From: a virus
Direction: 5' to 3' (one strand)
DNA: 35,001 bases
IMG/VR virus record: IMGVR_UViG_3300033153_007799
Span: 1-35,001 of that record
The position numbers were made by a program, and so were the translations under genes. Positions 4,964-29,067 of this stretch are shown here, piece after piece. Position 1 is the stretch's first letter. Each line of letters opens with the position of its first letter. Below the pieces are notes generated by a model that worked only from the letters and a program-made list of their open reading frames with translations, ran no database searches and was not told where the DNA came from.

Positions 4964-5364
4964 GATCGGTTGTTATATTGGGACGACCTGTCTCAGTTAA
5001 TCATATGTACAGGGGCGGCCGCAGGTATCTGACAGAAGCGGGGAAACAATACAAACGCACAGTAGCTCTTTTATGCAAGGATCAAAACCCCGAACTGGAA
5101 AAATTAAAGGGCGGTTTTATTGCCCTTGTTGTTTATAGATGGAAAGACAGACGGCGCAGGGACATTACAAATTACGAAAAAATAATAATGGATGCGCTTT
5201 CTGGAATTTTGTACAACGATGATAGCCAGGGCGTCATCTTTACTGCCGTAAAAATACTTGGTGAACCGGTTGAAAGCACGACGGTACAGATTTATACGAT
5301 GGAGGAATATCATGAATTTCTGGAAGATCTATCTCATTATCATAGCCTTTACGATCAGGATTGA
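4960..5364 (+). CDS. rusA: RusA-family Holliday junction resolvase
   Basis: 134 residues from ATG 4960, which overlaps the upstream TGA and has GGAG at 4948-4951 (8-base spacing); the upstream in-frame start at 4942 is less likely. RusA endonucleases cut four-way junctions as dimers, using acidic residues. Visible family marks are the N-terminal 'GRPVSVNHMYRGGRRYLTEAGKQYK' block and the metal-binding core 'RRRDITNYEKIIMDALSGIL' followed by YNDDSQ. Within these lie the conserved Asp of 'D--N--K---DAL' and the 'NDDSQ' Asp pair. The length is normal for the family. It fits with the ERF annealase at 32920: recombination intermediates and branched DNA are resolved before packaging. The last 53 bases overlap the next gene. 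Confidence 0.88.
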   Translation: MRSVVILGRPVSVNHMYRGGRRYLTEAGKQYKRTVALLCKDQNPELEKLKGGFIALVVYRWKDRRRRDITNYEKIIMDALSGILYNDDSQGVIFTAVKILGEPVESTTVQIYTMEEYHEFLEDLSHYHSLYDQD

Positions 5365-6046
5365 CGCACAGCAGGTCTACACATTTCCCGATTCCGTAGA
5401 AACCCTGCGGGTAAGCTGGTCTCATGACAACCCTATAGGTGAGCCTGTATATTTTACTGTATATCGCAATGGCGGATACATGGCTGGCGTGCAGGATGAG
5501 TTATTTATTAATGTGCAGAGATCCTGGTTTCTGGCAGACACAACAAGATTATGGGTGACGGCGACTGATTCCGCTGGAAATGAGAGTGGGTATAGAGATT
5601 ATGCTGTTGTCGTTTTTCTGGAAGAACCGCCGGAGCCCACGGTCTATGAGGCGGATGCGGATAAACTCTGGATGTGGACGAAAACAGGCGCAATGTCAAA
5701 AACACTGGATGCTATAAAATTATATGGGTATGATGTAGGCGATAATTGTGGTAAATTAAGCAAGATATTGTTATTTGGATCAGGCCAATATCAGGTTGCT
5801 ATTTGGGGTCATGGGCCTCGAGCGCAGGTCAGTATCGACGATGACATCAGGGAAATTGTATTGACGGGAGAATCACCGCACTTTATTTATTTTGATGTCA
5901 TGGCTGGTGACAAATTAACAGCTATCCAGACAGTTCGGGGGAATGATATTGAATTGCAGAAAATTAAAATCACATCTGTTGGAGAAGAAGCAGACCGGAT
6001 ACCGCCTAATGATCCATATAGCCTTGATGTGAGGATCGGAAAATGA
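5312..6046 (+). CDS. Secreted protein with FnIII-like and beta-sandwich domains
   Basis: 244 residues from ATG 5312, with GGAGG at 5301-5305. An upstream start (5258) would put 18 basic residues before the signal peptide. Residues 1-20 (MNFWKIYLIIIAFTIRIDAQ) look like a Sec signal peptide. Residues about 25-100 resemble a fibronectin type III repeat ('VSWSHDNPIGEPVYFTVYRN' to 'WVTATDSAGNESGYRDYAVVV'). Residues about 125-235 form a beta-rich domain with 'FIYFDVMAGDKLTAI', like a carbohydrate-binding sandwich. It overlaps rusA by 53 bases and ends just before the late promoter. A secreted adhesin in the early arm is unusual. Surface modification, superinfection exclusion or virion decoration are all possible. 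Confidence 0.65.
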   Translation: MNFWKIYLIIIAFTIRIDAQQVYTFPDSVETLRVSWSHDNPIGEPVYFTVYRNGGYMAGVQDELFINVQRSWFLADTTRLWVTATDSAGNESGYRDYAVVVFLEEPPEPTVYEADADKLWMWTKTGAMSKTLDAIKLYGYDVGDNCGKLSKILLFGSGQYQVAIWGHGPRAQVSIDDDIREIVLTGESPHFIYFDVMAGDKLTAIQTVRGNDIELQKIKITSVGEEADRIPPNDPYSLDVRIGK

Positions 6047-12911: not shown

Positions 12912-13088
12912 ATGATTGTAGATTATCTTGTAAAGGCTCCCCTGAAGGTGAGCCGGAAAATGCACGCCGCCGGAGACCGGATCAGTCTTGATCGGGATAA
13001 GGAGCTTGAGCGGCTTGGCTATCTTGAATTGATTGGTAAACAGTCAACTCAAGAAAAGCCGAAAAAGAAAAAAGGAGAAAAACCATAA
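12912..13088 (+). CDS. Small head/connector-region protein, 58 aa
   Basis: ATG 12912 with GAGAGGGG at 12898-12905; the longer frame upstream runs through the hairpin and is not used. The product MIVDYLVKAPLKVSRKMHAA continues 'GDRISLDRDKELERLGYLEL' and ends in a Lys-rich tail (KPKKKKGEKP). It has the shape of small phage proteins found between capsid and connector genes, with a 'G--I-L------L---G-I' SH3-like pattern. Its stop overlaps the next ATG by one base. Role unknown. Confidence 0.6.
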   Translation: MIVDYLVKAPLKVSRKMHAAGDRISLDRDKELERLGYLELIGKQSTQEKPKKKKGEKP

Positions 13089-13597
13089 TGAAGAAAATTA
13101 AGCTTGTCATTCTTGCGGCGTTGCTGCTGATGTCTGCTCAGATGGCAAACGCCCAATTTTGGCTCCCTCATTTTCTGGGAGATGTTAGCGGTGTGAGAGG
13201 ACAACTCTTTATCCCTGTCGATACTGATTTGACTGCAGATATGTGGCTTTGGGGTGATACTCTCGGAGCAACAAGCGCATACTATCCTGACCAGCCAATG
13301 CAGATTGATGACATAAAAGTGTATCACAATTCCGACGCTGGTGATACTTTTTTTGTCAGGATCTACTCTTACGAGGCCGGAGCGGGAGCGCAACTTGTTG
13401 CCCTGACAGACACCTGCATCGGCACCGCGCCTGTTTTGCATAGTGATATATCAACCTACGGCACTTTGTCAGATACCTATGCGGTCATTACGCCGACCGA
13501 AGGGATGGGCATACAGTTTGATTTCCTTGCCGGTACGCCGAACGATGTATTCATCATGATTGATTATACATGGCGGAAAAAGGAGACACTTGAGTAA
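13088..13597 (+). CDS. Virion-module protein with signal peptide, 169 aa
   Basis: ATG 13088. Residues 1-23 (KKIKLVILAALLLMSAQMAN then AQ) are a clear Sec signal peptide, with cleavage likely near 'ANA-Q'. The rest is beta-rich and acidic: 'GVRGQLFIPVDTDLTADMWL', 'DDIKVYHNSDAGDTFFVRIY', 'GIQFDFLAGTPNDVFIMIDY'. It lies between the major capsid and connector genes, overlapping both neighbours by one base, so it belongs to the late operon. A secreted protein in that place is unexpected. It may be a virion surface (decoration) protein whose leader is incidental or processed, or a periplasmic/outer-surface protein. The protein at 25965 has a similar layout. Confidence 0.6.
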   Translation: MKKIKLVILAALLLMSAQMANAQFWLPHFLGDVSGVRGQLFIPVDTDLTADMWLWGDTLGATSAYYPDQPMQIDDIKVYHNSDAGDTFFVRIYSYEAGAGAQLVALTDTCIGTAPVLHSDISTYGTLSDTYAVITPTEGMGIQFDFLAGTPNDVFIMIDYTWRKKETLE

Positions 13598-14313: not shown

Positions 14314-14868
14314 ATGATTGGCGTTCTGGAATTAAAAGGCGTGAATGTCGATAAATGGGAGGCTGATTTCAGCCGGTTTCAATCTGAATTGAGCTACAAG
14401 GCAATCAAGAGGGCGGCGAAGGAGATCAGATATATATTCGAAAAAGCTGAAAAAGAACTATTCGAAACCGAAGGGAGATCAGGCAGACATTCGAAATGGC
14501 CGCCGCTTTCTGAAAAGTACAAACTCTGGAAAGACAAGAATTATCCTGGCAGGCCCATACTTGTGTTGAAAGGCCGGTTAAAAAAATCATTGGCTCAGAT
14601 AACGCCGGACACAATTAACACCACATCTAAGTTTGGTGACAAGTGGATTATCAATATGGGTACAACGGTTGAATACGCTGAATATCATCAAAAAGGGATT
14701 AGATCGGGAACCGGCCGAAAGGTGCGCAGACCGATAGACCCATCCGATGAAGTAGCTCGTCTGATGATCAGGGCCGTGCAGAGGGAAGTTACAAAGGCGG
14801 CGAAAATATCGGGTGTATTTGATAATATCTATGAGGACGCACTTGCCAGAATGGACAGATTAAACTGA
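14314..14868 (+). CDS. Phage virion morphogenesis protein (Mu G-like tail completion)
   Basis: 184 residues from ATG 14314, immediately after the preceding TAG. The family (Phage_tail_S, Mu gpG-like) shows as 'FETEGRSGRHSKWPPLSEKY', then 'YPGRPILVLKGRLKKSLAQI', 'VEYAEYHQKGIRSG', and 'RRPIDPSDEVARLMIRAVQR'. These proteins act in head-tail joining or tail completion. The order connector, G-like protein, terminator, tube fits. The stop overlaps the next ATG (TGATG, 14866-14870). Confidence 0.82.
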   Translation: MIGVLELKGVNVDKWEADFSRFQSELSYKAIKRAAKEIRYIFEKAEKELFETEGRSGRHSKWPPLSEKYKLWKDKNYPGRPILVLKGRLKKSLAQITPDTINTTSKFGDKWIINMGTTVEYAEYHQKGIRSGTGRKVRRPIDPSDEVARLMIRAVQREVTKAAKISGVFDNIYEDALARMDRLN

Positions 14869-16799
14869 TGACAGGCTGGAAGTATTATAAACCGCTTGTA
14901 TTGAGCGGATCAGGTGGAGAGGAAACTGATATTAATTACAGGGTTTCAGTCACCTTCAATTCCAACATGCAGGCCGATTTCGCCGACATACGGTTTACAG
15001 ATTCGGACAATGTGACCCTGCTCGAACAGTATCGAGAGAGCTATATAGAGAGTGACAGTGCGGTGTTCTGGATCAAGGTTCCCTCCGTGTCCGCGGGCGG
15101 TAAAACAATCCGCATGTGGTATGGGAATGCGGAAGTCTCACTGAAATCTGACGGAGAGGCAACCTTTCCGTTATTCGATGATTTCTCCGGTGATAACGGA
15201 GACCCGCCTGATGCAACAAAGTGGACAAATGTAGGATCTAATATAATTCAAGACAATACATTAAAGATGCATTGTGAAGGTGGAAGTGATAATAAAGTTA
15301 ATTCTTTAACTGAATCTTATGGTGTATGCTATGGTATAATTGCGTCTATCAAAAATACTTCTACAATGAAGGAGCCATTTCGGTCAATAGGATTCACGAA
15401 ATATCCTGAAAACAATATAGATATTTGTTATATTTTTAGAGGTGACGGAAGTGTGTCCAGATTTCAATCTACTGGTGCACAAGAAAATATCCCGTTAATA
15501 TCTTTGAATGATTGGCATAAAGTGGAATTGCGGCGGGTATCAGATACGCAAACATTGTGTTATATGGATGGAACAAAGTATACGCTCAATGGTGATTCAA
15601 ATACGTATGAGCGTGGATGTGGAATGACCTTGTATACGGTATATATGCCAACAAATGATTCATTATGGATTAACTGGATTCTCGTTTATAAAATCCACTC
15701 CACTATTTCGGATACTTTCCCGTCTCTGGGTGATGAAGTTTCTGTAGGCTTGACGGGCCGTGATTGGCTCTTTGCTTATCAAAATGATGTCACAGACTGG
15801 GGAACTCCGGTTAAAGCTTTGTCCGGTGATCAGATATTGCCTTCTACGTTCGGGCCTCTCGTGTCGAGCGCGGCGATCAATCCTGACAAGTGTTGCGGAT
15901 TTTCGTGGAATAAGTATGTTTACAAAGGGCGAATATTATCAGAACAAACTATAAAAATGCCATTAAGGTATTCGGGCCGTCACTTTTCTTTTATCGCTCA
16001 GGTCATGGGTAAGGATACAGTAACGGGATCGGGTGTTTATACTCATCTTTTTGAGTTGCTTGATTCGGTAGATGGAAGCGGCTTATTTGGTACTCTGTAT
16101 GCTTATCTCGGCAGGAGCGGGAGCAAGCAGATAGTGGAATATCCATCATCCAAACCGTTTTATTTTTCGATCGACGGCCCTGAATATGGGGGATATTTGT
16201 CACTGACAGTCAGGTTAATATCAGATACAACTAATTATAATACTGACGCTCTGATGACTACATCTGATTTTGACAGTGTGGATCATATACTTTTCGATAG
16301 TGATCTCCCGAAAATCATTCCGTTTGGCTCCCTGAGAGTCAGAGTAAATGATTTCGGAGATGGCGCGCTTGACACTGTGGATCAGGTGAAACCGGTCGGG
16401 ATCAAGTACGAGGTTGAGAGACCGCAGGTGCGTGACTGGGTGGCAAGAGGCTCATTGGATGATGCTTGGAAAACGGATGAACCTAAAGAGACTCAAATCT
16501 CTGTCGAGCGGTTGACATTGGTTTTCCCTGACCTCAACACTTTGACTCATTTGGAAAAATACAAAGATCAGGAAATACGGAAGGCGGATCTATACATGCA
16601 ATATAATTCGGATCTGAATTTATTGATCGAGTTTCCAGCCCTGTTTCCTGTGGTGCCTGATGCCAACTGCCTTGGGCAGTCTCGTATATCGCATCCGGTT
16701 GGTTTTGTCCCTTTGGAAGTTTTATCCGCGCCGACAGGCATGACATTAACAAAATGGAATATAAAGATAAAAGATGGGAATGCAAACGCCTATCAATGA
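14868..16799 (+). CDS. DUF2341/LamG-like module fused to a second tail-tube protein
   Basis: 643 residues. Residues 1-105 are DUF2341 ('WKYYKPLVLSGSGG', 'NYRVSVTFNSNMQADFADIR', 'VFWIKVPSVSAGGKTIRMWY', 'FDDFSGDNGDPPDATKW'). Residues about 118-285 are a concanavalin-like jelly-roll in markedly AT-rich DNA (about 15225-15715). Residues about 295-643 are homologous along their whole length to the 354-residue tail-tube protein at 17561: shared 'W-K---Y--RILSE--IKMP', 'MRYSGR/LRYSGR', 'VAQ-MG-DT-TGS', 'FSIDGP--GGYLSLTV', 'PFGSL--R', 'LNDLTHLE', 'VPDAN--G-SRI', 'NPTGM'. It thus encodes an adhesin-decorated tail-tube subunit, possibly a minor tube subunit or a specialised ring. No signal peptide. Confidence 0.75.
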   Translation: MTGWKYYKPLVLSGSGGEETDINYRVSVTFNSNMQADFADIRFTDSDNVTLLEQYRESYIESDSAVFWIKVPSVSAGGKTIRMWYGNAEVSLKSDGEATFPLFDDFSGDNGDPPDATKWTNVGSNIIQDNTLKMHCEGGSDNKVNSLTESYGVCYGIIASIKNTSTMKEPFRSIGFTKYPENNIDICYIFRGDGSVSRFQSTGAQENIPLISLNDWHKVELRRVSDTQTLCYMDGTKYTLNGDSNTYERGCGMTLYTVYMPTNDSLWINWILVYKIHSTISDTFPSLGDEVSVGLTGRDWLFAYQNDVTDWGTPVKALSGDQILPSTFGPLVSSAAINPDKCCGFSWNKYVYKGRILSEQTIKMPLRYSGRHFSFIAQVMGKDTVTGSGVYTHLFELLDSVDGSGLFGTLYAYLGRSGSKQIVEYPSSKPFYFSIDGPEYGGYLSLTVRLISDTTNYNTDALMTTSDFDSVDHILFDSDLPKIIPFGSLRVRVNDFGDGALDTVDQVKPVGIKYEVERPQVRDWVARGSLDDAWKTDEPKETQISVERLTLVFPDLNTLTHLEKYKDQEIRKADLYMQYNSDLNLLIEFPALFPVVPDANCLGQSRISHPVGFVPLEVLSAPTGMTLTKWNIKIKDGNANAYQ

Positions 16800-16810
16800 C
16801 AGGTGAATAA

Positions 16811-17302
16811 ATGGCAGAATTTACCGAGGGAATTGTACGATACATGGCGGCGGCTCTTGCCGATGGGACTACGGGAGTCAATGCTCAAATAACAGCGATC
16901 AATACGGCATACAATGATGGTATCACGGTGCCTCAAAATCTTGTTGTTTATGAGGGAAGGCGATTTTCCATTGGTCACAAACTGCCGTGTTGTGTGATCT
17001 GGCCCGAATCAATGTCAGCAGTCGAGCCAACCAACGGCCTAACAATAGACGCAACGCATACCATGATGGTTTGGAGCGTTGTCTCATCGAAATTGACTGA
17101 AAAGAATTTGTCTAAAATCCTATGGCGGCACATGCTGGCAGTTTACCGAGCTATCAGGGCAACGCATAATCTTGACGGTGAAATTGATATATGTAAATTC
17201 GCTGGGTGGACTTTTGACAGCCCCTGGGCATCTGTCGATGAAAAAATATATCTGGAAATAGGTGGCGGCATCTATACAATACAAGATGAGGAGGAAGTAT
17301 AA
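16811..17302 (+). CDS. Tail terminator-like protein
   Basis: 163 residues from ATG 16811, with AGGTGAA at 16800-16806. The N-terminal helix ('FTEGIVRYMAAALADGTTGV'), 'VPQNLVVYEGRRFSIGHKLP' and 'CCVIWPESMSAVEP', then 'NLSKILWRHMLAVYRAIRAT' and a C-terminal strand 'EKIYLEIGGGIYTIQDEEEV', match the alpha/beta tail-terminator pattern (gp37/gpU-like) that caps the tail tube. The assignment rests on the pattern and on its position between G-like protein and tail tube. Overlaps the next ATG by one base. Confidence 0.55.
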   Translation: MAEFTEGIVRYMAAALADGTTGVNAQITAINTAYNDGITVPQNLVVYEGRRFSIGHKLPCCVIWPESMSAVEPTNGLTIDATHTMMVWSVVSSKLTEKNLSKILWRHMLAVYRAIRATHNLDGEIDICKFAGWTFDSPWASVDEKIYLEIGGGIYTIQDEEEV

Positions 17303-17559
17303 TGACAACATCTAACAGGCAACCGCCGAAGGGATATAAATTGGCGGTGGCAAAAATGAACGCCGGTATCTTCGGGCGTTCACCCGCGCCGATCCCGCTT
17401 GACCCAAAGGACGGCAGCAGCATTCTTGAAGGGCATTTGTATTTCATTCCGCAAAAGTATGATTACGATCATGAAATACTGAAATGGGATGGGAAGAAAA
17501 GCAGGCTGGTGAATGAATGCATCTTTGCGCCAGTAAAAACAAAGTCAGGAGGAAAATGA
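17302..17559 (+). CDS. Small tail-region protein, 85 aa
   Basis: ATG 17302 overlaps the preceding stop, with GAGGAGG at 17288-17294. The product is soluble and basic at the start (TTSNRQPPKGYKLAVAKMNA). 'SSILEGHLYFIPQKYDYDHE' follows, then 'WDGKKSRLVNECIFAP', and it ends in KSGGK. No family recognised. It ends one base before the tail-tube gene, so is probably part of the tail operon. Confidence 0.55.
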   Translation: MTTSNRQPPKGYKLAVAKMNAGIFGRSPAPIPLDPKDGSSILEGHLYFIPQKYDYDHEILKWDGKKSRLVNECIFAPVKTKSGGK

Positions 17560-17560
17560 A

Positions 17561-18625
17561 ATGGCCGCTTCTGTCACTTCAAAATCACTCATAGTTGGGA
17601 TCGAACAGACAGCCTCGACATGGGGAACGCCTGTTGCCGTAGGCGCGAATGATCTCGTGCTTGTCAATGGGTTGGGGCCGTTGCTCCCGCCGGCTGAAAT
17701 TGTCCCTGATCCTTCGGCTGGTTATGCTTGGCACAAATACATTGAGAAATGCAGGGAAAATGTCACGCCGGAAATCACAATGCCTATGCGTTACTCCGGC
17801 CGTTTGTGGTCTCCTGTCGCTCAGTGCATGGGACTTGATACAAAAACGGGATCGGAAGATCCTTATACGCACGTATTTTCTCTCCTTGAGGCGATCAATG
17901 GATCGGATCTGTTCAGTACAATTGTCGCGCAACTTGGGCCGTCAGGGAGCGAGATGCTCTTTGAATGGCCGTCAGCTACGCCTACAGGATTCACCATTGA
18001 CGGGCCTGACGGCGATGGTTATATGAGCTTGTCTGTCGGGTTTATAGCAGATACCGTAAATCTGGGAGCGGATTGTACAAATACGACCAGCGACATTGAT
18101 AACCTGACACACATGGAAATCTCATCCGCACTGCCTGGTGTCATCCCGTTTGGCTCTCTGAGTTTCCGGTTGAACTCACATGCTGGCGGGGCGTTGGCTG
18201 GCGGTGACGCTTTAAAGATCCGGCATTTTACCTTTTCCTTTAAACGGGGATTTGGCCCTGAATGGACAGCGAGGGGTGCGCTGGCTCAGGCATGGCAGTC
18301 TGATGAACCGGTTGAAGAGGGTATACCGGAAATGTCCCTGATGATTGAGCTTGGCGATCTGAATGATCTGACGCATCTGGAATATTACGACGATGAGACG
18401 GCTCTCAAATGTGATGCGACATGGACACTGAGCGGTGATCATTATGTCAAGTTGGAGATCCCTAAAATGTTTCCAGCTGTTCCTGACGCAAATGCCGAGG
18501 GAGCCTCTCGAATCCCGCAGACATTAAACTACATGGTGATGGAAGCTCTATCAAATCCGACAGGGATGTCGTTTAACCTGCCTCAGTTGACAGTGAGCGA
18601 TCCAAACGATACAGCTTATGAATAA
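17561..18625 (+). CDS. Major tail tube protein
   Basis: 354 residues from ATG 17561, with AGGAGG at 17548-17553. It is beta-rich with the tail-tube features seen in Mu- and siphophage-type tubes: 'SKSLIVGIEQTASTWGTPVA', 'MPMRYSGRLWSPVAQCMG', 'FTIDGPDGDGYMSLSVGF', 'ALPGVIPFGSLSFRLNSH', 'VPDANAEGASRIPQTLNY', and a C-terminal 'NPTGMSFNLPQLTVSD'. It has a paralogue fused to DUF2341 at 14868. Followed by a chaperone pair and tape measure, which fixes its identity. It is longer than typical tubes (about 150-250), with an extra half that may be a repeated domain. Confidence 0.72.
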   Translation: MAASVTSKSLIVGIEQTASTWGTPVAVGANDLVLVNGLGPLLPPAEIVPDPSAGYAWHKYIEKCRENVTPEITMPMRYSGRLWSPVAQCMGLDTKTGSEDPYTHVFSLLEAINGSDLFSTIVAQLGPSGSEMLFEWPSATPTGFTIDGPDGDGYMSLSVGFIADTVNLGADCTNTTSDIDNLTHMEISSALPGVIPFGSLSFRLNSHAGGALAGGDALKIRHFTFSFKRGFGPEWTARGALAQAWQSDEPVEEGIPEMSLMIELGDLNDLTHLEYYDDETALKCDATWTLSGDHYVKLEIPKMFPAVPDANAEGASRIPQTLNYMVMEALSNPTGMSFNLPQLTVSDPNDTAYE

Positions 18626-18649: not shown

Positions 18650-19090
18650 ATGTTAGACTTGACGAAAATAGGAAAATCTGTTGTGGTTAAGTACGGTAAA
18701 GATGAGACGTACACAATCAATTTTGTCACGGACGAAAGAATCAGGCAGCTGGCAGACCGGAAAAATATCGGCATGGAATCAATCCTCGATCCAAACAGGG
18801 ACAGTGACGATAACAAGGATGAGAAGGATGAGAAAGTCGATCCCAAAGACACGATTGTGATCAGTGTCATGAATGCCGTTTTCAACACGGACTTTGTCAC
18901 GTCTGTTGTCTGTGAGGCATGCACTGACTGGACAGGCATCTATGAGGGCAAGAAACCTTTCCCTTGTACGGACAAAAACAAAAAAATGTTATTCGAGACT
19001 TTTGGAAACAGGGCATTGTTTGTTTACAGAAAATGCAGGGATGAAAAGCTTTTTATGGGCGGCAGGCTTGAGGATGATTTAAAAAATTGA
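18650..19090 (+). CDS. Tail assembly chaperone, short form (G-like)
   Basis: 146 residues from ATG 18650, with GAGAGGG at 18634-18641. Tail assembly chaperones coat the tape measure before tube polymerisation. The protein has a beta-rich start (VVVKYGKDETYTINFVTDER), an acidic Asp/Glu/Lys linker at residues 50-64 (NRDSDDNKDEKDEKVDPKD), and a helical C-terminal part ending RLEDDLKN. It lies between the tube and tape-measure genes. Codons at the end contain a T-TTA-AAA heptamer (19078-19084) that permits a -1 shift into the next frame. Confidence 0.7.
   Translation: MLDLTKIGKSVVVKYGKDETYTINFVTDERIRQLADRKNIGMESILDPNRDSDDNKDEKDEKVDPKDTIVISVMNAVFNTDFVTSVVCEACTDWTGIYEGKKPFPCTDKNKKMLFETFGNRALFVYRKCRDEKLFMGGRLEDDLKN
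19078..19084 (+). promoter_or_regulatory. -1 frameshift slippery heptamer TTTAAAA
   Basis: In frame of the G-like gene the bases read T TTA AAA (the last T of GAT, then TTA, AAA), the classical X XXY YYZ slippery form. The 0-frame stop follows two codons later (TGA 19088-19090). The -1 frame is the open frame of the next gene. Lambda G/GT, and most siphophages, make a chaperone fusion by this means. No obvious strong stimulatory structure was checked. Confidence 0.7.
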
Positions 19091-19447: not shown

Positions 19448-21694
19448 ATGGCCCTTGAGTTTAAATTAATCATTGATGATAAAGGGACAGCCACGATCAA
19501 GAAGTTCAGGGATACTTCCAATAAGGCTATCTCTGACATAGAAAAGAAGTCCGCTCAATCAGTTAAGAATCAAGAGAAACGATACAAGAGGCTTGGCGAA
19601 TCTCTGAGAAAGTACCGGTCTGTCGCTTTTGGTGCCTTGGCGGCGGCTGGCGTTGGAGGGATGCTTGCCAATCTTGCGTCTGAGGCAGAAGAAACGCAGA
19701 GCAAATTTAATGTCGTCTTTGGAAATCTGGCAAGAGAAACAAACGCATGGGCCGAAAGTTTTGGCCAGTCAGTTGGCAGGGCAAGAACGGACATCAAGGG
19801 TTGGATGGCCGAACTCCAGGATACTTTTGTCCCTCTTGGAAACACAAGAAAGGCGGCTTCTGAATTCAGTAAATCTATTGTTACTCTTGCAGTCGATGTC
19901 GCATCGTTTAATAATAAAGCCGATGCTGATGTAATTCGCGATTTTACATCTGCCATAGTTGGCAACCATGAGACTGTCAGGAAATACGGAGTCATTATAT
20001 CTGAGGCCACCTTGCAACAGGAGGCCCTTGCAAGCGGCTTGATCAAGACAAAAAGACAATTAACGGCGCAGGAAAAGGTACAAGCAAGGGTAAATCTGCT
20101 ATTTAAGTACACGAAAGATGCTCAGGGCGATGTAATAAGGACGGCAGATTCTTACGCGAATAGGGTCAAAAGATTAAGATCAGAGGCCAGGGATCTGGGG
20201 GAAGACCTCGGAAAGTTTTTAATCCCTGCCTTCTCCCAGCTTGTGGAGTGGGCCGGAAAGGGCATCGAAGCAGTTGAGAAATTTCTAAAAACGATTGATG
20301 TGACAACAGAAGAAGCGCAGATAAAAAGGACTCTTGATGCAGCTATTAAAGCGAATGCTCGAATAGAGGAATTGATAAATAGCAGAAAAGAAGTTGCTAT
20401 TTCAGCTGATAAAGAAGAAGAGGCTTCGGCAGTTCAGAAATTTTTAAACATTGGAAGGGGATTACATCTTGCTTATATAGATGCATACCAGTCTATAAGG
20501 GGAGAAGTTGAACCGATATATAATTATCTATTTGATGAACAGCAAGCTATCAATATCGAAATGTCCAAGATGGGCCCAATTGCAGGGATGGCAAGGGCCG
20601 AGTTTGAATCATTGGTTAATACAGATAAGGAGTTCGCAAAATCTATTGCTTCTGGCAATATCCCCCTTGAGATGCAAAAAGAGTCTTTGACAGCACTGAT
20701 TGAAAGGCTGGAGAAACGGCTATCATTGGTAAAAGAAACAAATGCCGAAGAGGGGAAGGCTGGGGCTGGCATTGGCGGCATTGATCCAGAAGCGGTAAAA
20801 GCTTATGCCGATCAAATAGTACGGTCAGCTAACGCTGCATTGGATATGAAAGGGGGGTTAATAGAATCATCCGAATATATTGATACCTTGGCAGAAACGG
20901 ATATTTCACCAGAAGATAATATCTGGGATAATTATAAAGATGGAATTCAACAGGCGTTATCAGATCAGCAAATAATGGTTGATCTCGTCGGTTCTCTGGC
21001 GCAGGGTATCACCGGCCCCATTACAGCAGGCTTGACCGATATGATCAAAGGAACAAAAACGATCAGTGAAGGATTTAAAGCGATTGGCACTTCGATTTTG
21101 CAAAATGTTGTTAGTGCTTTGACCGAGGCTATTATAAAGGCCACTATATTCAAGGCTGTATTTGGATTTTTCGGCGTTCCATTTTTTGGGTCAGGCGGGA
21201 CTGTTGGATTTGGTCAACTGGTTCCGGCTGGCGTTCCTATGGCTAAAAAGGGCGGCGTTCTTGTTAGTGGCTTACCGGCTCCGGCTGGTATTCCCAAATT
21301 TGGTTCAGGCGGAATTGTTGAGTTTGGTCAACTGGCTCCAACAGGCTTTCCCAAATTTGGAATAGGTGAGACTGTTGGATTTAATCAGTTGGCTCCGGTT
21401 GACGTTCCCAAATTTGGCATTGGTGGGTATGGGATCGGAGGGCGAACAATTCCAGGGAGTGACGAGGTCTTAGTAGGGATACAGCCGGGCGAAGGCGTTT
21501 TGACACGCCGGACGGTTCAACGACTCGGCGGCCCTGAAGGCGTTGACGCATTGAACAGAGGAGCCACAACGAGTGGCGGGAATACGATAAACATTACGAT
21601 CAATACGAAAACAGTAGATGAAAATTTTGTCCGGCGGAGGCTCGTGCCAATGCTGAAAGATCTTGATTTAAATCAGAGAGTTTCGATTGCTTAA
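19448..21694 (+). CDS. Tail tape measure protein
   Basis: 748 residues from ATG 19448. It sets the tail length. About 1.5 angstrom per residue would give a tail of roughly 110 nm. The N-terminal ~100 residues are helical with a hydrophobic stretch 'FGALAAAGVGGMLANLA'. 'EAEETQSKFNVVFGNLARET' and the helical region after it are the usual tape-measure start of phages with Mu-like heads. A second hydrophobic segment (about 560-580, 'VVSALTEAIIKATIFKAVFG') precedes a Gly/Pro-rich repeat (21185-21430) and the conserved 'PGSDEVLVGIQPGEGVLTRR' C-terminal signature. It overlaps the next start by 8 bases. Confidence 0.85.
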   Translation: MALEFKLIIDDKGTATIKKFRDTSNKAISDIEKKSAQSVKNQEKRYKRLGESLRKYRSVAFGALAAAGVGGMLANLASEAEETQSKFNVVFGNLARETNAWAESFGQSVGRARTDIKGWMAELQDTFVPLGNTRKAASEFSKSIVTLAVDVASFNNKADADVIRDFTSAIVGNHETVRKYGVIISEATLQQEALASGLIKTKRQLTAQEKVQARVNLLFKYTKDAQGDVIRTADSYANRVKRLRSEARDLGEDLGKFLIPAFSQLVEWAGKGIEAVEKFLKTIDVTTEEAQIKRTLDAAIKANARIEELINSRKEVAISADKEEEASAVQKFLNIGRGLHLAYIDAYQSIRGEVEPIYNYLFDEQQAINIEMSKMGPIAGMARAEFESLVNTDKEFAKSIASGNIPLEMQKESLTALIERLEKRLSLVKETNAEEGKAGAGIGGIDPEAVKAYADQIVRSANAALDMKGGLIESSEYIDTLAETDISPEDNIWDNYKDGIQQALSDQQIMVDLVGSLAQGITGPITAGLTDMIKGTKTISEGFKAIGTSILQNVVSALTEAIIKATIFKAVFGFFGVPFFGSGGTVGFGQLVPAGVPMAKKGGVLVSGLPAPAGIPKFGSGGIVEFGQLAPTGFPKFGIGETVGFNQLAPVDVPKFGIGGYGIGGRTIPGSDEVLVGIQPGEGVLTRRTVQRLGGPEGVDALNRGATTSGGNTINITINTKTVDENFVRRRLVPMLKDLDLNQRVSIA
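21185..21430 (+). repeat. 57-bp repeats in the tape measure gene
   Basis: Degenerate copies of a ~19-residue unit, consensus FGSGGTVGFGQLAPAGVPK, start at 21185, 21299 and 21356 with a partial fourth at 21413. The first copy is extended by an inserted 'MAKKGGVLVSGLPAPAG'. The units lie after the second hydrophobic segment, just before the conserved C-terminal block. They suggest recent in-frame amplification and may form an elongated Gly/Pro-rich linker. Confidence 0.7.
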
Positions 21695-24113
21695 CGCCAG
21701 TTCAAATTTTGAAACTTTGAACAATCTGACTGAAAAGGAGCCTATCTTTACGATTCAGTTTGACGGTGTGGCAACTGTATTTTCATCTGGGCCATACGCC
21801 GATGCGGGAGCGTCAACAAAACAGCTTTTGATAGATCTCCAGCGAATTGATACGGATACGGATCAACAGGCATTCAAGACCCATCTGGGTGGTTTTACAT
21901 TTTCTATCCTTGACAAAGACGGGGAAATCCGTTCCCTGCTTGCCAATCCTCTGGCAGATAAAATGGTGACTGCTAAAACCGGCTATCAGGGATTGAACCA
22001 TGCGGACTTTGTATCTTTGCCGGTGGCTTATGTTCAGAGTTATGGTATAGAGCCGGATCTATTGACATATACTTTCAAGTGCCGTTACAAGCTTTCCCAT
22101 TATCGTACTATCTTTGGAAACATGGGTAAAACGGTATTGACTAAAGCGATTGAGGCGGAAGATGAAATGATAACCGGCGGCGATGTGGAAACAGCCGTAC
22201 CGGTGATGAATGGAGTTGAACTTACAGATGTCGGTTGCGCTACATTGAAGGATGCGGGTCAGGCGCATGGCGGCTCGTCGTCGGCGAAAATGACCGGCAC
22301 GAATTTCGGGGGGCAAACCGAATTTTCAACTTATTTTGAAAATAGCTATTTTTGCGGTTTGGATTCTGGGGCCGATTATGATGTGTCTATCTGGGTATAC
22401 AATCCAGCCGGACAGGATCTTGACAGGGTGCGGCTCTATTATACAAATAGCAGCAGCGTCGATGTGTTGTTAGATACAACTCTCGTGACAGGATCTTGGG
22501 TAAAATTGACCGGAAGCATCACAGGCTATATGGAGAAATGTTTATATATTGTGGCCGATGATCAGGATGCTGGTGGCAACATCTTCACCGAATTTATTTA
22601 CGTCGATGACTGGTCAATCATACGCAAAGATACAGAAGTATATGGTGATGATATTTCTGGGTTCTCGGCGGCTGGTGCGGCTCCGTGGGATGCGGATACT
22701 TATATCAAAATAGATAATGAGGTTATAAAATATACGGCTAAAACAACATATTTTACCTGTGTGCGCGGACAGCTCGGTACCGAAATTGCCCACCATGACA
22801 TAGGGGCGGAGATCCGCGAAGTCATTGTGGTCGAGCAATCCGATCATGGTATGGAATTTCTTTTGAATCTTCTTACGACCACAGCCGCGGGAACTAATGG
22901 AGATTATGATCTCGGCCTTGAAAATTGGGGCCTTGGCATTGATATTGACTTTATTGACATATTGAATTTTAAAAACGAGATGGGTGATAAGGGGAAATGG
23001 GGCGATGACGGGGCTGGAAACAATGATTTTAAAATGGCCTACACACCGAAAGCAGAAGTCGAAAAAGGTCTTGAATGGATTGAGAAAAACATCCTGTCGT
23101 TAATCCCTGCCTTTTTTGTCTTGACCGAAACAGGCAAACTCGGAATAAAGTTCTGGGATATTTCGGCTAATAAAATCGGAGGCGAAACTTTAACAGAAGA
23201 TGATATTTTGGAAAGTCCGGTAGCTGAAATCCTTACGAGTAATATTATATCTCATGTCGAGTTGAAGGGGGCTTACAACGCCGCGTCCGGCACGTGGCTT
23301 GATTATGTTGTTTACACTTGTGATGAATGCGTTGCTATCTGGGGAGAAAAGAAGTGGCTGAAACTGAAAAGCCTCTGGCATGACTCACCTTTGTTTGGTG
23401 ACAGTTTCCGGCTTGACAGAATGATCGAGCGGATCTTCGGACGGTTCGGAAACAGCACTCTTCGGGTGCATGTGTCCTCATATTTGAAAAGACAGCTCCT
23501 ACAAGTGGGTGATATGCTGAATGTGTCTCATGCCAAGTTGCCGGTGTTTCGGGATGGATCGATCGGATGGACAAAAGAGTCTGGTGAAATTACATCCATT
23601 AATATGGCTTATCTGGCTGGCCGGATCGCAACTGAAATGTCGATTGATAATTACTACGGCGTGAATGAGGCGGATATACAGGATATACACGTTTTTGAAC
23701 AGGCCGATCTTGACAGGGCAACCTTGACAGAGGATGCAAACCATGCACAGGGCACTCTGCAAGCGGCTGATGCATACATTGATCAGGCAACATACAAAGC
23801 CACTAATGTAATGGTGGAAATCGAAATAACGCAACCAGGGGAAGCCGGAGGCGATACAGAGGAATATATCACACTATACATCAAAGTGCAGAATCCGGTT
23901 AATACAGATATAAAAGAAATCGAGAAGCGATTTTATTATAACGAAACGTCTGATGAAAAAGTGACGCGGCAATTTTACGCTCTGGGGATGACCAGCACGA
24001 CCTTTGCGCGGATTCGTGTGGATTGGACGGCGCATTCTGATACATTCCCACCGACTGATGTGACAGTGAAAAAAGTTGTCTTATGGGATTTTAAGGGGAC
24101 AATATCATCATGA
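21687..24113 (+). CDS. Tail hub/baseplate protein with inserted carbohydrate-binding-like domain
   Basis: 808 residues, TTG start 21687 overlapping the tape-measure stop. The first ~150 residues and the segment from about 390 on read like a tail-tip hub ('EQSDHGMEFLLNLLTTTAAG', 'WIEKNILSLIPAFFVLTETG', 'SYLKRQLLQVGDMLNVSHAK'). Between them, residues about 165-310 form a beta sandwich resembling CBM4/9-type lectin modules ('GGSSSAKMTGTNFGG', 'SGADYDVSIWVYNPAG', 'GSWVKLTGSITGYM', 'IYVDDWSIIRKD'). The module looks inserted into a hub loop, as in many siphophage tips. It would contact host glycans. There are more beta domains at the C-terminus. Position after the tape measure is the hub position. 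Confidence 0.65.
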   Translation: MLNASSNFETLNNLTEKEPIFTIQFDGVATVFSSGPYADAGASTKQLLIDLQRIDTDTDQQAFKTHLGGFTFSILDKDGEIRSLLANPLADKMVTAKTGYQGLNHADFVSLPVAYVQSYGIEPDLLTYTFKCRYKLSHYRTIFGNMGKTVLTKAIEAEDEMITGGDVETAVPVMNGVELTDVGCATLKDAGQAHGGSSSAKMTGTNFGGQTEFSTYFENSYFCGLDSGADYDVSIWVYNPAGQDLDRVRLYYTNSSSVDVLLDTTLVTGSWVKLTGSITGYMEKCLYIVADDQDAGGNIFTEFIYVDDWSIIRKDTEVYGDDISGFSAAGAAPWDADTYIKIDNEVIKYTAKTTYFTCVRGQLGTEIAHHDIGAEIREVIVVEQSDHGMEFLLNLLTTTAAGTNGDYDLGLENWGLGIDIDFIDILNFKNEMGDKGKWGDDGAGNNDFKMAYTPKAEVEKGLEWIEKNILSLIPAFFVLTETGKLGIKFWDISANKIGGETLTEDDILESPVAEILTSNIISHVELKGAYNAASGTWLDYVVYTCDECVAIWGEKKWLKLKSLWHDSPLFGDSFRLDRMIERIFGRFGNSTLRVHVSSYLKRQLLQVGDMLNVSHAKLPVFRDGSIGWTKESGEITSINMAYLAGRIATEMSIDNYYGVNEADIQDIHVFEQADLDRATLTEDANHAQGTLQAADAYIDQATYKATNVMVEIEITQPGEAGGDTEEYITLYIKVQNPVNTDIKEIEKRFYYNETSDEKVTRQFYALGMTSTTFARIRVDWTAHSDTFPPTDVTVKKVVLWDFKGTISS

Positions 24114-24382
24114 TTGAAATTTTGATTATCGTTATTGCCACAATTGCAAATGCTCTTTGTGATGTCTGGATCAGGCGGAAAAATGGTGTCGGATGGTGGC
24201 AGTGGCACATCCCGAAGTGGATACATTTTTACCCTCCGTTAATATATATATTAAATAATAGATACCCATTGACAAAAGAATGGCCTGTATGGATTGTGTT
24301 GTCTATTGTCTGCTGGTTGCTCTGGCGGTCGATTTATCGAAATTGGTTTAATTTGGGAATCAGGAAATGGGATACCCGCTAA
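24110..24382 (+). CDS. Two-pass membrane protein in the tail cluster
   Basis: 90 residues from ATG 24110 (overlaps the preceding TGA by 4 bases). Hydrophobic segments lie at residues 2-18 (IEILIIVIATIANALCDV) and about 59-76 (PVWIVLSIVCWLLWRSIY). A Trp-rich amphipathic loop (GVGWWQWHIPKWIHFYPPLI) lies between them. Its stop overlaps the start of the next gene (24367) by 16 bases. Membrane proteins are not usual between hub and fibre genes. It might be a holin-like, channel-forming or receptor-interaction accessory protein. Family not recognised. Confidence 0.6.
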   Translation: MIEILIIVIATIANALCDVWIRRKNGVGWWQWHIPKWIHFYPPLIYILNNRYPLTKEWPVWIVLSIVCWLLWRSIYRNWFNLGIRKWDTR

Positions 24383-25965
24383 TAACATGCGGTACAATCA
24401 GGGTGGATTTTGACCGGCATTTCAATGTCTGGAAACCGGCGCGGATCGAATCAAAGGCCGTGAATGAGGCCGCATCGGGAAAAACCGAAACGCTGACATT
24501 CTATGAGAGGTGGAAAGTTGAGGCGGCGATACGCCGGTTGAAAGGTGAAACGATCCTGCAATTGGAAGCTTTTTACAGGGCGGCGAAAGACGGCACATCA
24601 TTTTCGATGTGGTGGGATCGGTCGCTTGGATTGTGTGCTTTTTTTGAGGACGGGCTTTACACCATTGATGGGGATACCGGTACATTCAGCCGTTCGGTTG
24701 CCGCTCATTATGTTGGACGCGATGGTTTATTAAAAGAAACGGCGAGTGGAACGCCGCGATACCCGTCTGGCAAATTTGGCGGCGGCTTGTTGCTTGAGGG
24801 AAGCAGCGCGAACGCATTGTTGTATTCTGAGCAGTTTGACCATGCAACATGGGTAAAAACTAATGTAACTGTATCGGCAAATACAACAGACATAGATGAT
24901 CCAAAGGGCGAAAATAACGCTGATAAATGCACGGCAACGGCAAATAATGGGACAATTGTACAAACGCTGTCCGGCGCAGTTGGCACCAATGATGCTTGTC
25001 TGTCTGTTTGGATGCGTGCTGCTGTTGGATGCGATGTAACATTAACGATAACCGATGATGCAGGATCGTTTACCGAATCGAATGAATACAATATAACATC
25101 TGAGTGGGTACGATATGAATTGGCCTATGAGAATACAGGCGCGTCAAATCCCAATAACTGGAAAGTGCAAATTACACTGGATAATAATGGAGATATTGTT
25201 TACTTATATGGGGTGCAACTTGAAGGCGGGGCGCACAAAAGATATGCAACGGGGTATATGAAAACTGAGGCTACGATAGCAACAAGATTAGAAGAACAAC
25301 TGGTTTACACTATAATCGAGGGACGACATTTTAACAGATTAAAAGGATTGATATCATTTTGGGAGTACCACAATTGGGAATATGACGAAGGAGGAGGGGG
25401 GGGAGATGATCCTGTTCGTGTTATGCTGCAAATTACAGACTTGTCCGACAATCCGGTGTTGACTATTTACCGCAATGATAGTAGTAAACTGATTGTAAAA
25501 ATAGAGGATTTGGCCGGAAATGATTACACGGCGGAATCAGTAACAAATTTACCGCATAGACAATGGAACCATATTGCGTTTGCATGGGACATAACAGATA
25601 GAATATATACTCCGCCGACATGGCATGCTGGATATTTATATCTAAACGGATCAGGTGAAAATTGGATGATAATGAATGATGAGATATTGCCGCCAACTCC
25701 GACAAAATTATATCTCGGCAATTCTGCGGCTGGCAGTCAGGAAGCCGATTTTATCATAGATGATTTGATGATTTATCTGGAGGCCGACGGAGGCATTGGA
25801 TCAACAAATACTACAGTAAGCCGCATTTACAATGCCGGAAGGTCTCTCGGATTAAGAAGAAATTATTTTTCAGATTTACAGCTCGCAGATAATAAATTTT
25901 CACCAACTCTTTTAGCTGGTGGTAAAGTGTACGATTTTGAACTAATCGCAGAGGAGGTTTTATAA
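24367..25965 (+). CDS. Tail adhesin with CBM-like and LamG-like domains
   Basis: 532 residues from ATG 24367, overlapping the membrane gene. Residues 1-90 ('YERWKVEAAIRRLKGETILQ', 'FYRAAKDGTSFSMWWDRSLG') are tail-attachment like. About 150-300 is a CBM4/9-like beta sandwich ('ANALLYSEQFDHATWVKTNV', 'GAVGTNDACLSVWMRAA', 'YLYGVQLEGGAHKRYATGYM'). About 320-510 is a LamG/concanavalin-like jelly roll ('GLISFWEYHNWEYD', 'LPHRQWNHIAFAWDITDRIY', 'KLYLGNSAAGSQEADFIIDD'), joined by an EGGGGGDDP linker. It is most likely a receptor-binding tail protein. Confidence 0.65.
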   Translation: MGYPLITCGTIRVDFDRHFNVWKPARIESKAVNEAASGKTETLTFYERWKVEAAIRRLKGETILQLEAFYRAAKDGTSFSMWWDRSLGLCAFFEDGLYTIDGDTGTFSRSVAAHYVGRDGLLKETASGTPRYPSGKFGGGLLLEGSSANALLYSEQFDHATWVKTNVTVSANTTDIDDPKGENNADKCTATANNGTIVQTLSGAVGTNDACLSVWMRAAVGCDVTLTITDDAGSFTESNEYNITSEWVRYELAYENTGASNPNNWKVQITLDNNGDIVYLYGVQLEGGAHKRYATGYMKTEATIATRLEEQLVYTIIEGRHFNRLKGLISFWEYHNWEYDEGGGGGDDPVRVMLQITDLSDNPVLTIYRNDSSKLIVKIEDLAGNDYTAESVTNLPHRQWNHIAFAWDITDRIYTPPTWHAGYLYLNGSGENWMIMNDEILPPTPTKLYLGNSAAGSQEADFIIDDLMIYLEADGGIGSTNTTVSRIYNAGRSLGLRRNYFSDLQLADNKFSPTLLAGGKVYDFELIAEEVL

Positions 25966-26465
25966 TGACAAGCAGAGGAAGAAAATGGCTGGGCTTAGCA
26001 ATTGCAGCCCTCGTGATTTTTGTTTTTTTGGTTTTTGTAACAGCTTCAAATGCGCAGGGAGTTAAAAAAGTATGGCCCCTGAGCGCGGACGGAGAAACAG
26101 CGGGTTTTATCTACATCCCGAATCAGGACACGGTATACTCAGAGGTCTTTGAATCATATCCGGTTATGTCATGCCAGTATGCCGTAAAAGATACAAACAG
26201 CCGCGACAGTTGCGATATTGCCCTGTACGTACAGGCTTGCCCTGATACATCATTGATCAGCACAGAACAGGCGGCTTGGGAAACGGTGCAAACAATATCA
26301 GCGGCCCTGACTGACACGACCGCAAATCCGTTTTACAACATCACATATACGCCGGTGCCGCCCGCTTTTTTCTATCGTTATATGGGAGTTGGCGGCTCTG
26401 ATAACGGAATAGGCACTCGGCTGTTGATAACTCAGGCGAATTACGAAGCGACACGGAGGCGATAA
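25965..26465 (+). CDS. Signal-peptide protein in the tail module, 166 aa
   Basis: ATG 25965 overlaps the preceding stop, with GAGGAGG at 25951-25957. Residues 5-29 (GRKWLGLAIAALVIFVFLVF, then VTASNAQG) form a strong signal peptide or anchor with a likely 'ASNAQ' cleavage site. The mature part is beta-rich: 'KKVWPLSADGETAGFIYIPN', 'CDIALYVQACPDTSLISTEQ', 'NPFYNITYTPVPPAFFYRYM'. Its layout resembles that of the 169-residue protein at 13088, and both lie in the virion operon. It is followed after 1 base by the fibre gene. Role unknown. Confidence 0.55.
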   Translation: MTSRGRKWLGLAIAALVIFVFLVFVTASNAQGVKKVWPLSADGETAGFIYIPNQDTVYSEVFESYPVMSCQYAVKDTNSRDSCDIALYVQACPDTSLISTEQAAWETVQTISAALTDTTANPFYNITYTPVPPAFFYRYMGVGGSDNGIGTRLLITQANYEATRRR

Positions 26466-26466
26466 A

Positions 26467-29067
26467 ATGAAAAAATTAACGATCATTTTATTGATGATGG
26501 CAGCCTTTGTTCCATCTCTCTATGGACAGTATTACGGTCATATAGGATCTATCTCATTTTTCCCGACAACCGACACAACCTATGTCAATAAATCTACGGG
26601 GATGTGTTATGTATACAATGGCAAATATTATGTCGGCGACGGAACCTATCTGATTGAACTGGCCTATGGCGGCGGCGTAGCCGGTGACTATCTCAAGAAG
26701 GATGGAAGCGTCGCTCTGACTGCTCCGTGGGACGCGGGTGCATTTCGAATTACGGCAGACACCTTGACCGGTGATACATATGGAAGCGATGGCTCCGTAT
26801 CAGATGCCGAATTGCTATTTATCAATTCTCTGACAGGGAACGTGCAAGACACCTTGGTTGCCATACGGTCAGATGTTGGGACGGTGGAAACAACTGTTTC
26901 TGATCACGGTGATACATTAACCGCACATCTTACTCGTTTCAACACGGTAGACGATACTACGGCAGCTATAAGGGCGGACATTCAGACCAACACGGCCGAT
27001 ATTTCGACCAATGCAGATTCTTTATCTGCTCACCTTTCACGGTTTAACACGGTCGATGACACAACAGCCGCTTTGAGAACTGATATTCAAACTAACGCGG
27101 CTGGGATTGCAGAAAACGCAGATAGCCTGGCAGTTCATCTCACCCGTTTTAACACGGTGGATGATACGACTGGAGCGTTACGCACAGACATTAACCAGAG
27201 GGCATTGGACGCTGACGTGCTCAAAAAAGACGGGTCGGTTGCGCTGACGGCAGATTGGAACGCCGGATCGCATCGAATAACAGCGCAATCTTTGGCAGTG
27301 GATACGGCATTTGTCAGCGCAGAAATACAAATCACCGATGGCACGGATGCTATCGGAATCAATAGCAGTGCAATTACTATCTTGACTGACAACGCTGGCG
27401 CGGCCCACAATCTTGCGTCTTTTGCGGATGCGACTCAGGCTAAACCTGTATACATCAAATCAAACGGAGAGATAGAGACAGCTGGTAATATCAAGGGAGC
27501 GACTTATGCTTCGGATGGATCTGTCTCTGACGCGGAGCTGAAATATATCAACACTCTGTCATCCAATGCACAGAATCAGATTGATGGCAAACAGGCAACC
27601 CATACCAATTTGACTGGCCTTTCATCTCTCTCCTCTACCGGCCTTGTGGCAAAGACAGGCGCGGGGACTTTTACAGAGCGAACCTTGACCGGAACCGCCG
27701 ATCAAATTACAGTAACAAATGGGAATGGTGTTAGCGGCAACCCAACCATTGCTTTTGTCACTAATCCGATACTTGCAGGAAATCTCACCGTCCCTAACGG
27801 CGGGACAGTAGGAGCCGCCACAAACAAGTGGACGTTTGATGACAGCAACAATGATATATCCACAACTGCTAAGGTTGGCATTGGGGAAGCTTCGAATCCT
27901 CAATCAATACTATATATAGAACAAGCTAATGATGGTGGAGATACTAAAGTTATAATTCGTAATTCAGATAGTCCCTCTACCGACGAAACTTCTACTATAA
28001 GATTACAACCTGGAGCTGTTCATAGTTATGATGTTGCTCCTGGTATTCAAGCGTATAAATTGGGAACTGGTGCAGGAACAGCTTTACGAGATTACGGTTT
28101 AAAATTACAAGTTACAAATAATGATGAAGTTGTTAATGGTATAACAATATTAAATACTGGCTACGTCGGCGTCAATATAACAAATCCCACTGACGCCAAG
28201 CTCGTCGTAGCCGGAGATCAGGGCGCATCAGGCTATATTGGCCTGTATGCCGATTCTTCTGATGACAACGCAGACAGATGGAGATTTGAAGCCGAAAACG
28301 GCGCGGACTTCAACCTGCAATCCTACGCAAGCGGCTCGTGGGTGGACAAATTTAGTGTAACGAATACAGGTGACGCGATTGTTGCAAATGACCTCACAGT
28401 GCTTGGAAACATTATAGGTACTACCTGCTATGGCGAAATGGGAAATGAGTATGGATCAAGCGCGACAGAAGTCTTGGGCGATGCCAACTGGCATGCTATG
28501 TGTCATGCAAATATATCCGGCTCTGCCCCTCACATGAATAGCGGTTTTACTTTTGTAGCCGGTAAATCGGGAACAATTGCATCATCCTCAACCGACCCTG
28601 GCTCGACAGTCACTTTTACCGATGTTGATCATGGCTTGTTAGCTGGTGATTATATTACGCTCAACACAATGAGTGACGCATCGTATAATGGAGTTTATGA
28701 GGTGCAGTCAGTAACAGACGATACATTTACGATCAATGAAACAAACACAGAGGCGAGCGAGACCGGTACGTGGCAGATGGGAGCGTATTTACTCGTCGGC
28801 ACATCGGGTGTATACAAAGGCACGTGGAGTGCCAGCTTTACGCAATCCCTGAATAACACACAAACAACGATTGTATCACCTTTTGTTAATACAACACAGG
28901 CAACGAAAGCTACATCTGTCCATATGCTAAACAACAATTCGGATACAGGCGGTTTCAGCGGTAACGGCAATATGTCATTTACCGCAGGAGATCGTATCTG
29001 GTTCGCCGTGCAGACATCCGCCGCTCAGACCATAACATTCCTCGTGCGTAATCTTTCAGTAAGGTAG
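26467..29067 (+). CDS. Tail fibre with signal peptide and C-terminal head domain
   Basis: 866 residues from ATG 26467. Residues 1-20 (MKKLTIILLMMAAFVPSLYG) form a signal peptide, rare for a tail fibre. A beta segment follows, then three tandem 35-residue coiled-coil repeats (26926 onward, unit 'HLTRFNTVDDTTAAIRADIQ' and more). Two kinds of longer fibre repeat are present: 'YLKKDGSVALTA-W-AG---I' (about residues 76 and 250) and 'YGSDGSVSDAELLFINSL' (about 104 and 345). The C-terminal ~190 residues ('TNTEASETGTWQMGAYLLVG', 'TATKATSVHMLNNNSD', 'FSGNGNMSFTAGDRIWFAVQ') look like a trimeric head domain of C1q/TNF-like shape. Residues about 475-565 are encoded in AT-rich DNA and may be an exchanged segment. 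Confidence 0.75.
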   Translation: MKKLTIILLMMAAFVPSLYGQYYGHIGSISFFPTTDTTYVNKSTGMCYVYNGKYYVGDGTYLIELAYGGGVAGDYLKKDGSVALTAPWDAGAFRITADTLTGDTYGSDGSVSDAELLFINSLTGNVQDTLVAIRSDVGTVETTVSDHGDTLTAHLTRFNTVDDTTAAIRADIQTNTADISTNADSLSAHLSRFNTVDDTTAALRTDIQTNAAGIAENADSLAVHLTRFNTVDDTTGALRTDINQRALDADVLKKDGSVALTADWNAGSHRITAQSLAVDTAFVSAEIQITDGTDAIGINSSAITILTDNAGAAHNLASFADATQAKPVYIKSNGEIETAGNIKGATYASDGSVSDAELKYINTLSSNAQNQIDGKQATHTNLTGLSSLSSTGLVAKTGAGTFTERTLTGTADQITVTNGNGVSGNPTIAFVTNPILAGNLTVPNGGTVGAATNKWTFDDSNNDISTTAKVGIGEASNPQSILYIEQANDGGDTKVIIRNSDSPSTDETSTIRLQPGAVHSYDVAPGIQAYKLGTGAGTALRDYGLKLQVTNNDEVVNGITILNTGYVGVNITNPTDAKLVVAGDQGASGYIGLYADSSDDNADRWRFEAENGADFNLQSYASGSWVDKFSVTNTGDAIVANDLTVLGNIIGTTCYGEMGNEYGSSATEVLGDANWHAMCHANISGSAPHMNSGFTFVAGKSGTIASSSTDPGSTVTFTDVDHGLLAGDYITLNTMSDASYNGVYEVQSVTDDTFTINETNTEASETGTWQMGAYLLVGTSGVYKGTWSASFTQSLNNTQTTIVSPFVNTTQATKATSVHMLNNNSDTGGFSGNGNMSFTAGDRIWFAVQTSAAQTITFLVRNLSVR
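26926..27190 (+). repeat. 105-bp tandem repeats in the fibre gene
   Basis: Units start at 26926, 27031 and 27136, exactly 105 bp (35 codons) apart, and the third is partial (ends about 27190). Protein units begin HL(T/S)RFNTVDDTTAA(I/L)R(A/T)DIQ. They encode a heptad-like trimeric coiled coil that would allow the fibre length to change by unequal recombination. Confidence 0.85.

Follow-up and report, generated by a model that had tools for sequence, protein, structure and literature searches.

Tail-tube proteins with additional domains

To our knowledge, the tail-tube proteins of phages that are decorated with an extra domain carry it C-terminally, and in many cases only some of the subunits have it. 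Such tube proteins with additional surface domains are well known from SPP1, lambda, T5 and the 936 phages (PMC6669499, PMC10038345, PMC8718954), and the TpeX module of the 936 phages binds host cells (PMC6669499). A second tube-fold protein may also occur beside the bulk tube, as illustrated by T5 p140 and T4 gp54, of which p140 has been ascribed to duplication of the tube gene (PMC10038345). Lectins at the neck are found in the neck structures of TP901-1 and the 936 phages (PMC6669499).

The stretch of viral DNA analysed here (35,001 bases, hereafter the window) encodes a plain tail-tube protein and a second, fused protein in which a tube paralogue is preceded by a lectin-like module. The likeness to SPP1 gp17.1/gp17.1* and to 936 MTP/TpeX lies in two tube forms, one with an extra surface domain, which in the present case too would be parts of one virion. 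The long form of those phages, however, results from a frameshift in a single gene and has its addition at the C-terminus, whereas here it is encoded by a paralogous gene that has diverged, and the added part is N-terminal and differs in fold. The tube half of the fused protein is predicted to share the fold of the P74-26, T5 (pb6) and SH-Ab15497 tubes; pb6 has an Ig-like domain at its C-terminus instead. With T5 p140 and T4 gp54 it shares the property of being a second tube-fold protein next to the bulk tube; p140 is undecorated, sits at the tip and has its gene among those of the baseplate, whereas the paralogue described here is decorated and its gene lies between Neck1 and the terminator. 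The NPS of TP901-1 and the 936 phages would have the same function, i.e. display of carbohydrate-binding modules at the neck, only if the leading explanation discussed below is right. It is built from a BppU-like anchor, a trimeric coiled coil and a C-terminal CBM, whereas here the DUF2341 part is N-terminal and a tube ring would serve as the anchor. The fused paralogue combines parts of decorated tubes, paralogue rings and lectin-bearing necks, and fits the specific definition of none of these. Decorated tubes and tube paralogues were already known; a separate tube paralogue, N-terminally fused to a lectin-like module and encoded beside the terminator, seems to be new.

Organization of the locus

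The structural genes of the window follow the usual order of terminase, portal, protease, capsid, head completion, Neck1, fused gene, probable terminator, small gene, plain tube, probable chaperone, tape measure and tip proteins; those from Neck1 to the tape measure are on the plus strand. Neck1, a tail-completion protein (14314-14868; phrog_26, E 1.2e-11), has a stop codon that overlaps by one base with the start of the fused gene (14868-16799, 643 aa), an open reading frame that recurs in relatives. Within it, the DUF2341 domain (PF10102) with its N-terminal strands covers aa 3-121 (14874-15230), a predicted concanavalin-A/GH16-like jelly roll aa 100-278 (15165-15701), and the tube half, recognized by homology to the plain tube and by its predicted fold, aa 291-643 (15738-16796). 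The gene of the plain tube protein (17561-18625, 354 aa) is followed by a probable tail assembly chaperone (18650-19090; phrog_313, E 0.0042) and the tape measure protein (19448-21694; phrog_1535, E 8.7e-20). Both tube reading frames are present exactly where the preliminary description had placed them. Further downstream, the tip protein encoded at 24367-25965 has a Laminin_G_3 match (E 6e-9), and the one at 21687-24113 a CBM_4_9 match (E 1.2e-4) that is below the family cut-off.

Two genes separate the copies, as was noted before, when the first was called the tail terminator. This 163-aa gene (16811-17302) is conserved in all relatives and probably does encode the terminator, an assignment based on its position and on weak matches to phrog_4204 (tail terminator) that were obtained with the homologues of two loci only, L012 and L013 (E 0.012 and 0.015, respectively). 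In the related locus L011 the probable terminator has a C-terminal Laminin_G_3 domain (E 1.6e-22), which implies lectins on more than one neck-side component within the group. The second, small gene (17302-17559, 85 aa) has homologues in L009, L011, L016, L032 and L012, and its ribosome-binding site is strong (SD -12.3 kcal/mol).

Tube identity of the C-terminal half

A BLASTP comparison aligns residues 291-643 of the fused protein with residues 1-354 of the plain protein, i.e. its entire length, with 148 of 354 positions identical (42%), a single gap and an E-value of 2e-90. The match throughout that had been read from the translations is borne out, and the duplication, which is well past chance, is seen again in four other lineages. 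A search for an internal duplication inside the tube half gave no sequence signal.

That these proteins form the tail tube had been a guess, which is now supported by the predicted fold, by a profile match of a homologue and by the position of the plain copy. The fused protein was modelled from an alignment of 17 sequences; the mean pLDDT is 62.5, with values of 54-88 for most of aa 430-640. The beta core, the lack of which would have counted against the first reading, is present in this model, and the best matches of residues 323-638 are solved tail tubes: that of P74-26 (Z 15.1 over 245 residues, rmsd 4.2), the major tail protein of SH-Ab15497 (Z 14.7) and pb6 of T5 (Z 13.3). These scores are well above the background of Z 7-8 that VIA-align states for models without a clear match; the structure matches listed are mostly to the jelly roll, and further tube families may be absent from them. 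Sequence identity to the solved two-domain tubes is very low (9-12%). Tube-family profiles gave no match with either protein of the window; the fused homologue of L016 passes the cut-off of Phage_tube_2 (PF18906; E 5.5e-7, 29.9 bits against 27), and two plain-tube homologues match phrog_290, a minor tail protein, one of them at E 1.9e-5. The plain copy lies between the terminator and the chaperone and tape measure genes, the usual place of a tube gene, and the fused copy upstream of the terminator. The homology and the predicted fold together agree with the earlier proposal of two paralogous tube proteins, one of which has a large N-terminal module. Each chain of the P74-26 and T5 tubes contains two tube domains, and the rings are trimeric (PMC10034513, PMC10038345); by analogy the tube family of the window is probably two-domain and trimeric as well.

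The N-terminal module

Residues 1-290 of the fused protein consist of a DUF2341 domain and a predicted concanavalin-A/GH16-like jelly roll. The former is detected at residues 37-121 (PF10102, E 2.7e-21, 76.2 bits against a cut-off of 23.4), and the pLDDT of the model is mostly 75-92 up to about residue 110. Model residues 99-278 match GH16-type and ConA-like domains with VIA-align Z-scores up to 14.9; the pLDDT of the jelly roll is 39-77 per block, with several blocks around 40-60, and its fine structure is not to be trusted. Of the original designation "DUF2341/LamG-like", the DUF2341 part and, at the level of the model, the ConA-type fold hold, but Pfam LamG has no significant match in the fused protein of the window; the L032 homologue gives a sub-threshold Laminin_G_3 match (E 0.031). 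The catalytic motif ExDxxE of GH16 is absent from all five fused proteins, and a GH16-type enzyme was set aside on this ground. Since the motif is missing, the jelly roll is more likely a lectin than an enzyme, and glycan binding by the N-terminal module is plausible.

DUF2341 modules also occur in cellular genomes, with matches in two archaeal control genomes, and in proteins of other viruses (vir524, Sulfolobales Beppu rod-shaped virus 1 and the IMG/VR loci L019-L029), where a jelly roll usually comes next. When annotated phage records were searched by tblastn, such modules turned up in just two viruses, the methanogen virus vir524 and a rod-shaped virus of archaea. These proteins share the DUF2341 module with the fused protein, but no tube domain fused to it is detected there by BLAST. 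The fused protein, for its part, suggests that DUF2341 may serve surface attachment on some virions.

Recurrence and evolution

Relatives were obtained by scanning IMG/VR with the capsid protein, which yielded six related loci, and by further scans, which added L016 and L032; all are uncultured viral contigs. Single- and two-sequence searches of IMG/VR and GTDB genomes gave no tube relatives, and none were found in GTDB genomes or in plasmids. Five diverged lineages of uncultured tailed viruses carry the fused gene (the window, L009, L011, L016 and L032); L010 is a near-identical partial copy of L011 that contains only the start of this gene. In all five lineages its immediate upstream neighbour is Neck1, the terminator homologue comes next, and further downstream lie the small gene and the plain tube. 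The more distant loci L012 and L013 have a plain tube only, and their Neck1 gene adjoins that of the terminator. The search for the same fusion in other phages, which the first reading had proposed, thus led to four other uncultured lineages, and by tblastn the DUF2341-tube fusion was not found among 50,697 annotated phage records.

Mean pairwise identity is 52% for the plain tubes and 39% for the fused tube halves; as judged from these sequences, the fused genes evolve faster than the plain tube. Lower identity would be expected if the fused halves were freed from the constraint of stacking on themselves. A special relaxation of the stacking elements in the fused copies is no more than hinted at by a joint p of 0.04, with regions that were picked after inspection. 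Across all ten plain and fused copies, 31 sites are invariant. A separate duplication in each genome was rejected by tree topology (AU p 9e-51). One origin of all fused copies is not rejected by the topology test, with poor bootstrap support and a branching order that is left unsettled.

Copy number and position of the fused protein

Ribosome-binding sites and gene position may give an indication of where the fused protein is used. The median energy of the site is -4.6 kcal/mol for the fused gene, similar to Neck1 (-4.1), the terminator (-4.0) and the tape measure protein (-4.4), whereas the sites of the plain tube (-10.3) and the capsid (-8.7) are strong. Neck1, terminator and tape measure proteins are low-copy proteins in the phages that have been studied. 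The difference between fused and plain-tube sites has a one-sided p of 0.011, from few data and related sequences, and four of the five lineages have a weak site before the fused gene. Taken together, the strength of the sites, the place of the gene and its faster evolution speak for a low-copy position at an end of the tube rather than for decoration all along it. In P74-26, the N-terminus of the tube protein is involved in assembling the ring and can obstruct Socket1, into which a loop of the following ring fits (PMC10034513); a bulky addition at the N-terminus could therefore hinder stacking on one face, and by this analogy would fit an end position better than free stacking. The tip location of T5 p140 matches the place of its gene among the baseplate genes (PMC10038345), which suggests that a paralogue encoded between Neck1 and the terminator may sit at the neck. 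The Laminin_G_3 domain on the adjacent probable terminator of L011 also speaks for the neck.

The explanation that we tentatively prefer, with somewhat less than an even chance of being right as a whole, is as follows. An ancestral two-domain tail-tube gene was duplicated, after which one duplicate would have remained the bulk tube protein and the other acquired an N-terminal DUF2341 and ConA-like lectin module and turned into a low-copy structural protein. The tube would be continued by a ring of the fused protein, or by a few such rings, most probably at the end towards the head, beside the terminator, rather than near the tip. Lectin arms would project from the neck, three per ring if the rings are trimeric like those of P74-26 and T5, and would bind glycans of the host surface weakly and reversibly. 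The duplication, the added module, the predicted tube fold, the conservation in five lineages and the gene position are observed; we infer from them that the fused protein is present in virions, is low-copy, forms a head-proximal ring and binds sugars. Three observations count against a neck ring: the fused gene of L011 is exceptional in having a strong ribosome-binding site (-10.2), the known neck adhesins use a BppU-type anchor and no tube domain (PMC6669499), and the tube-paralogue rings described from other phages, T5 p140 and T4 gp54, lie at the tip.

A less likely alternative, which still deserves serious attention, is that rings over the full length of the tube contain the fused protein as a minority subunit, giving scattered lectin decorations. 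The tube fold and the invariant sites have been retained in all ten copies, SPP1 mixes two tube forms in a 3:1 ratio (PMC8718954), and the extended tail proteins of the 936 phages expose a binding module (PMC6669499). The SPP1 and 936 forms, however, come from one gene by frameshifting and are extended at the C-terminus, whereas a separate gene is involved here and the addition lies by the N-terminus, an end known from P74-26 to govern ring assembly; moreover, the position and ribosome-binding sites of the fused gene resemble those of neck proteins.

We regard as improbable a tip-proximal ring comparable to T5 p140 or T4 gp54, which would help to build an adhesion device at the level of the baseplate. 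It is at the tip that the tube paralogues of T5 and T4 are located, and the tip proteins of the window do carry carbohydrate-binding-like modules (Laminin_G_3, and CBM_4_9 under its cut-off), but in five lineages the gene lies between Neck1 and the terminator and not with the baseplate genes past the tape measure, and the p140 ring is undecorated. Very improbable is a role outside the virion, as an assembly factor or as a decoy, secreted or on the cell surface, that is produced in the course of infection: presence in virions is deduced from genes and DUF2341 occurs in cellular genomes too (the two archaeal controls), but the gene is inside the head-tail morphogenesis run, the full tube domain is retained in all five lineages, and the protein sequence opens straight with the DUF2341 module and shows no evident signal peptide.

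Implications

A dedicated head-proximal ring with N-terminal lectins would be a tube-built neck adhesion collar that arose separately from the BppU-based NPS and was kept in five lineages, a possibility that we put forward with reserve, as one that falls short of an even probability. If the fused protein marks one ring, a tube subunit has been recruited as the anchor of an adhesin, and this would open the question of how a phage confines a minor subunit to one end of its tube. The recurring pair suggests that a duplicated tube subunit became a low-copy part of the virion that grips the host.

The small gene between the probable tail terminator and the plain tube gene of the window (17302-17559, plus strand) encodes a conserved protein (MKIGIAK...), homologues of which, like the window copy about 55-85 amino acids long, occur in four uncultured relatives with a fused lectin-like/tube gene (L009, L011, L016 and L032) and in a more distant one with the plain tube only (L012). 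A family search with the window copy gave no match. The ribosome-binding site of this gene, in the window and the relatives (-9.4 to -12.3 kcal/mol), is among the strongest of the tail genes, and its product may therefore be abundant. Signal-peptide-like or membrane-spanning N-termini, for example MKKIKLVILAALLLMSAQMANAQ, are present in window proteins encoded within or adjoining the structural run (5258-6046, 13088-13597, 25965-26465 and 26467-29067, plus strand); such N-termini are uncommon in virion proteins of tailed viruses.

A DUF2341-like/jelly-roll module is also found in proteins of four unrelated viral contigs (L020, 7521-9185; L026, 7515-9227; L027, 7509-9218; L029, 7530-9254; all plus strand), where it follows an N-terminal part of about 160 amino acids and precedes a shorter C-terminal part. 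Both flanks appear similar across these proteins, as if the module had been inserted into one host protein.

In the relative L011, the 387-residue product of 14860-16023 (plus strand) carries Laminin_G_3 at its C-terminus (E 1.6e-22) and is probably a lectin-decorated tail terminator. In the window, a tip-region protein (24367-25965, plus strand) contains Laminin_G_3 (E 6e-9) and a probable hub protein (21687-24113, plus strand) gives a sub-threshold match to CBM_4_9 (E 1.2e-4). With these two proteins, the particle of the window virus may bear modules for glycan binding in several places.
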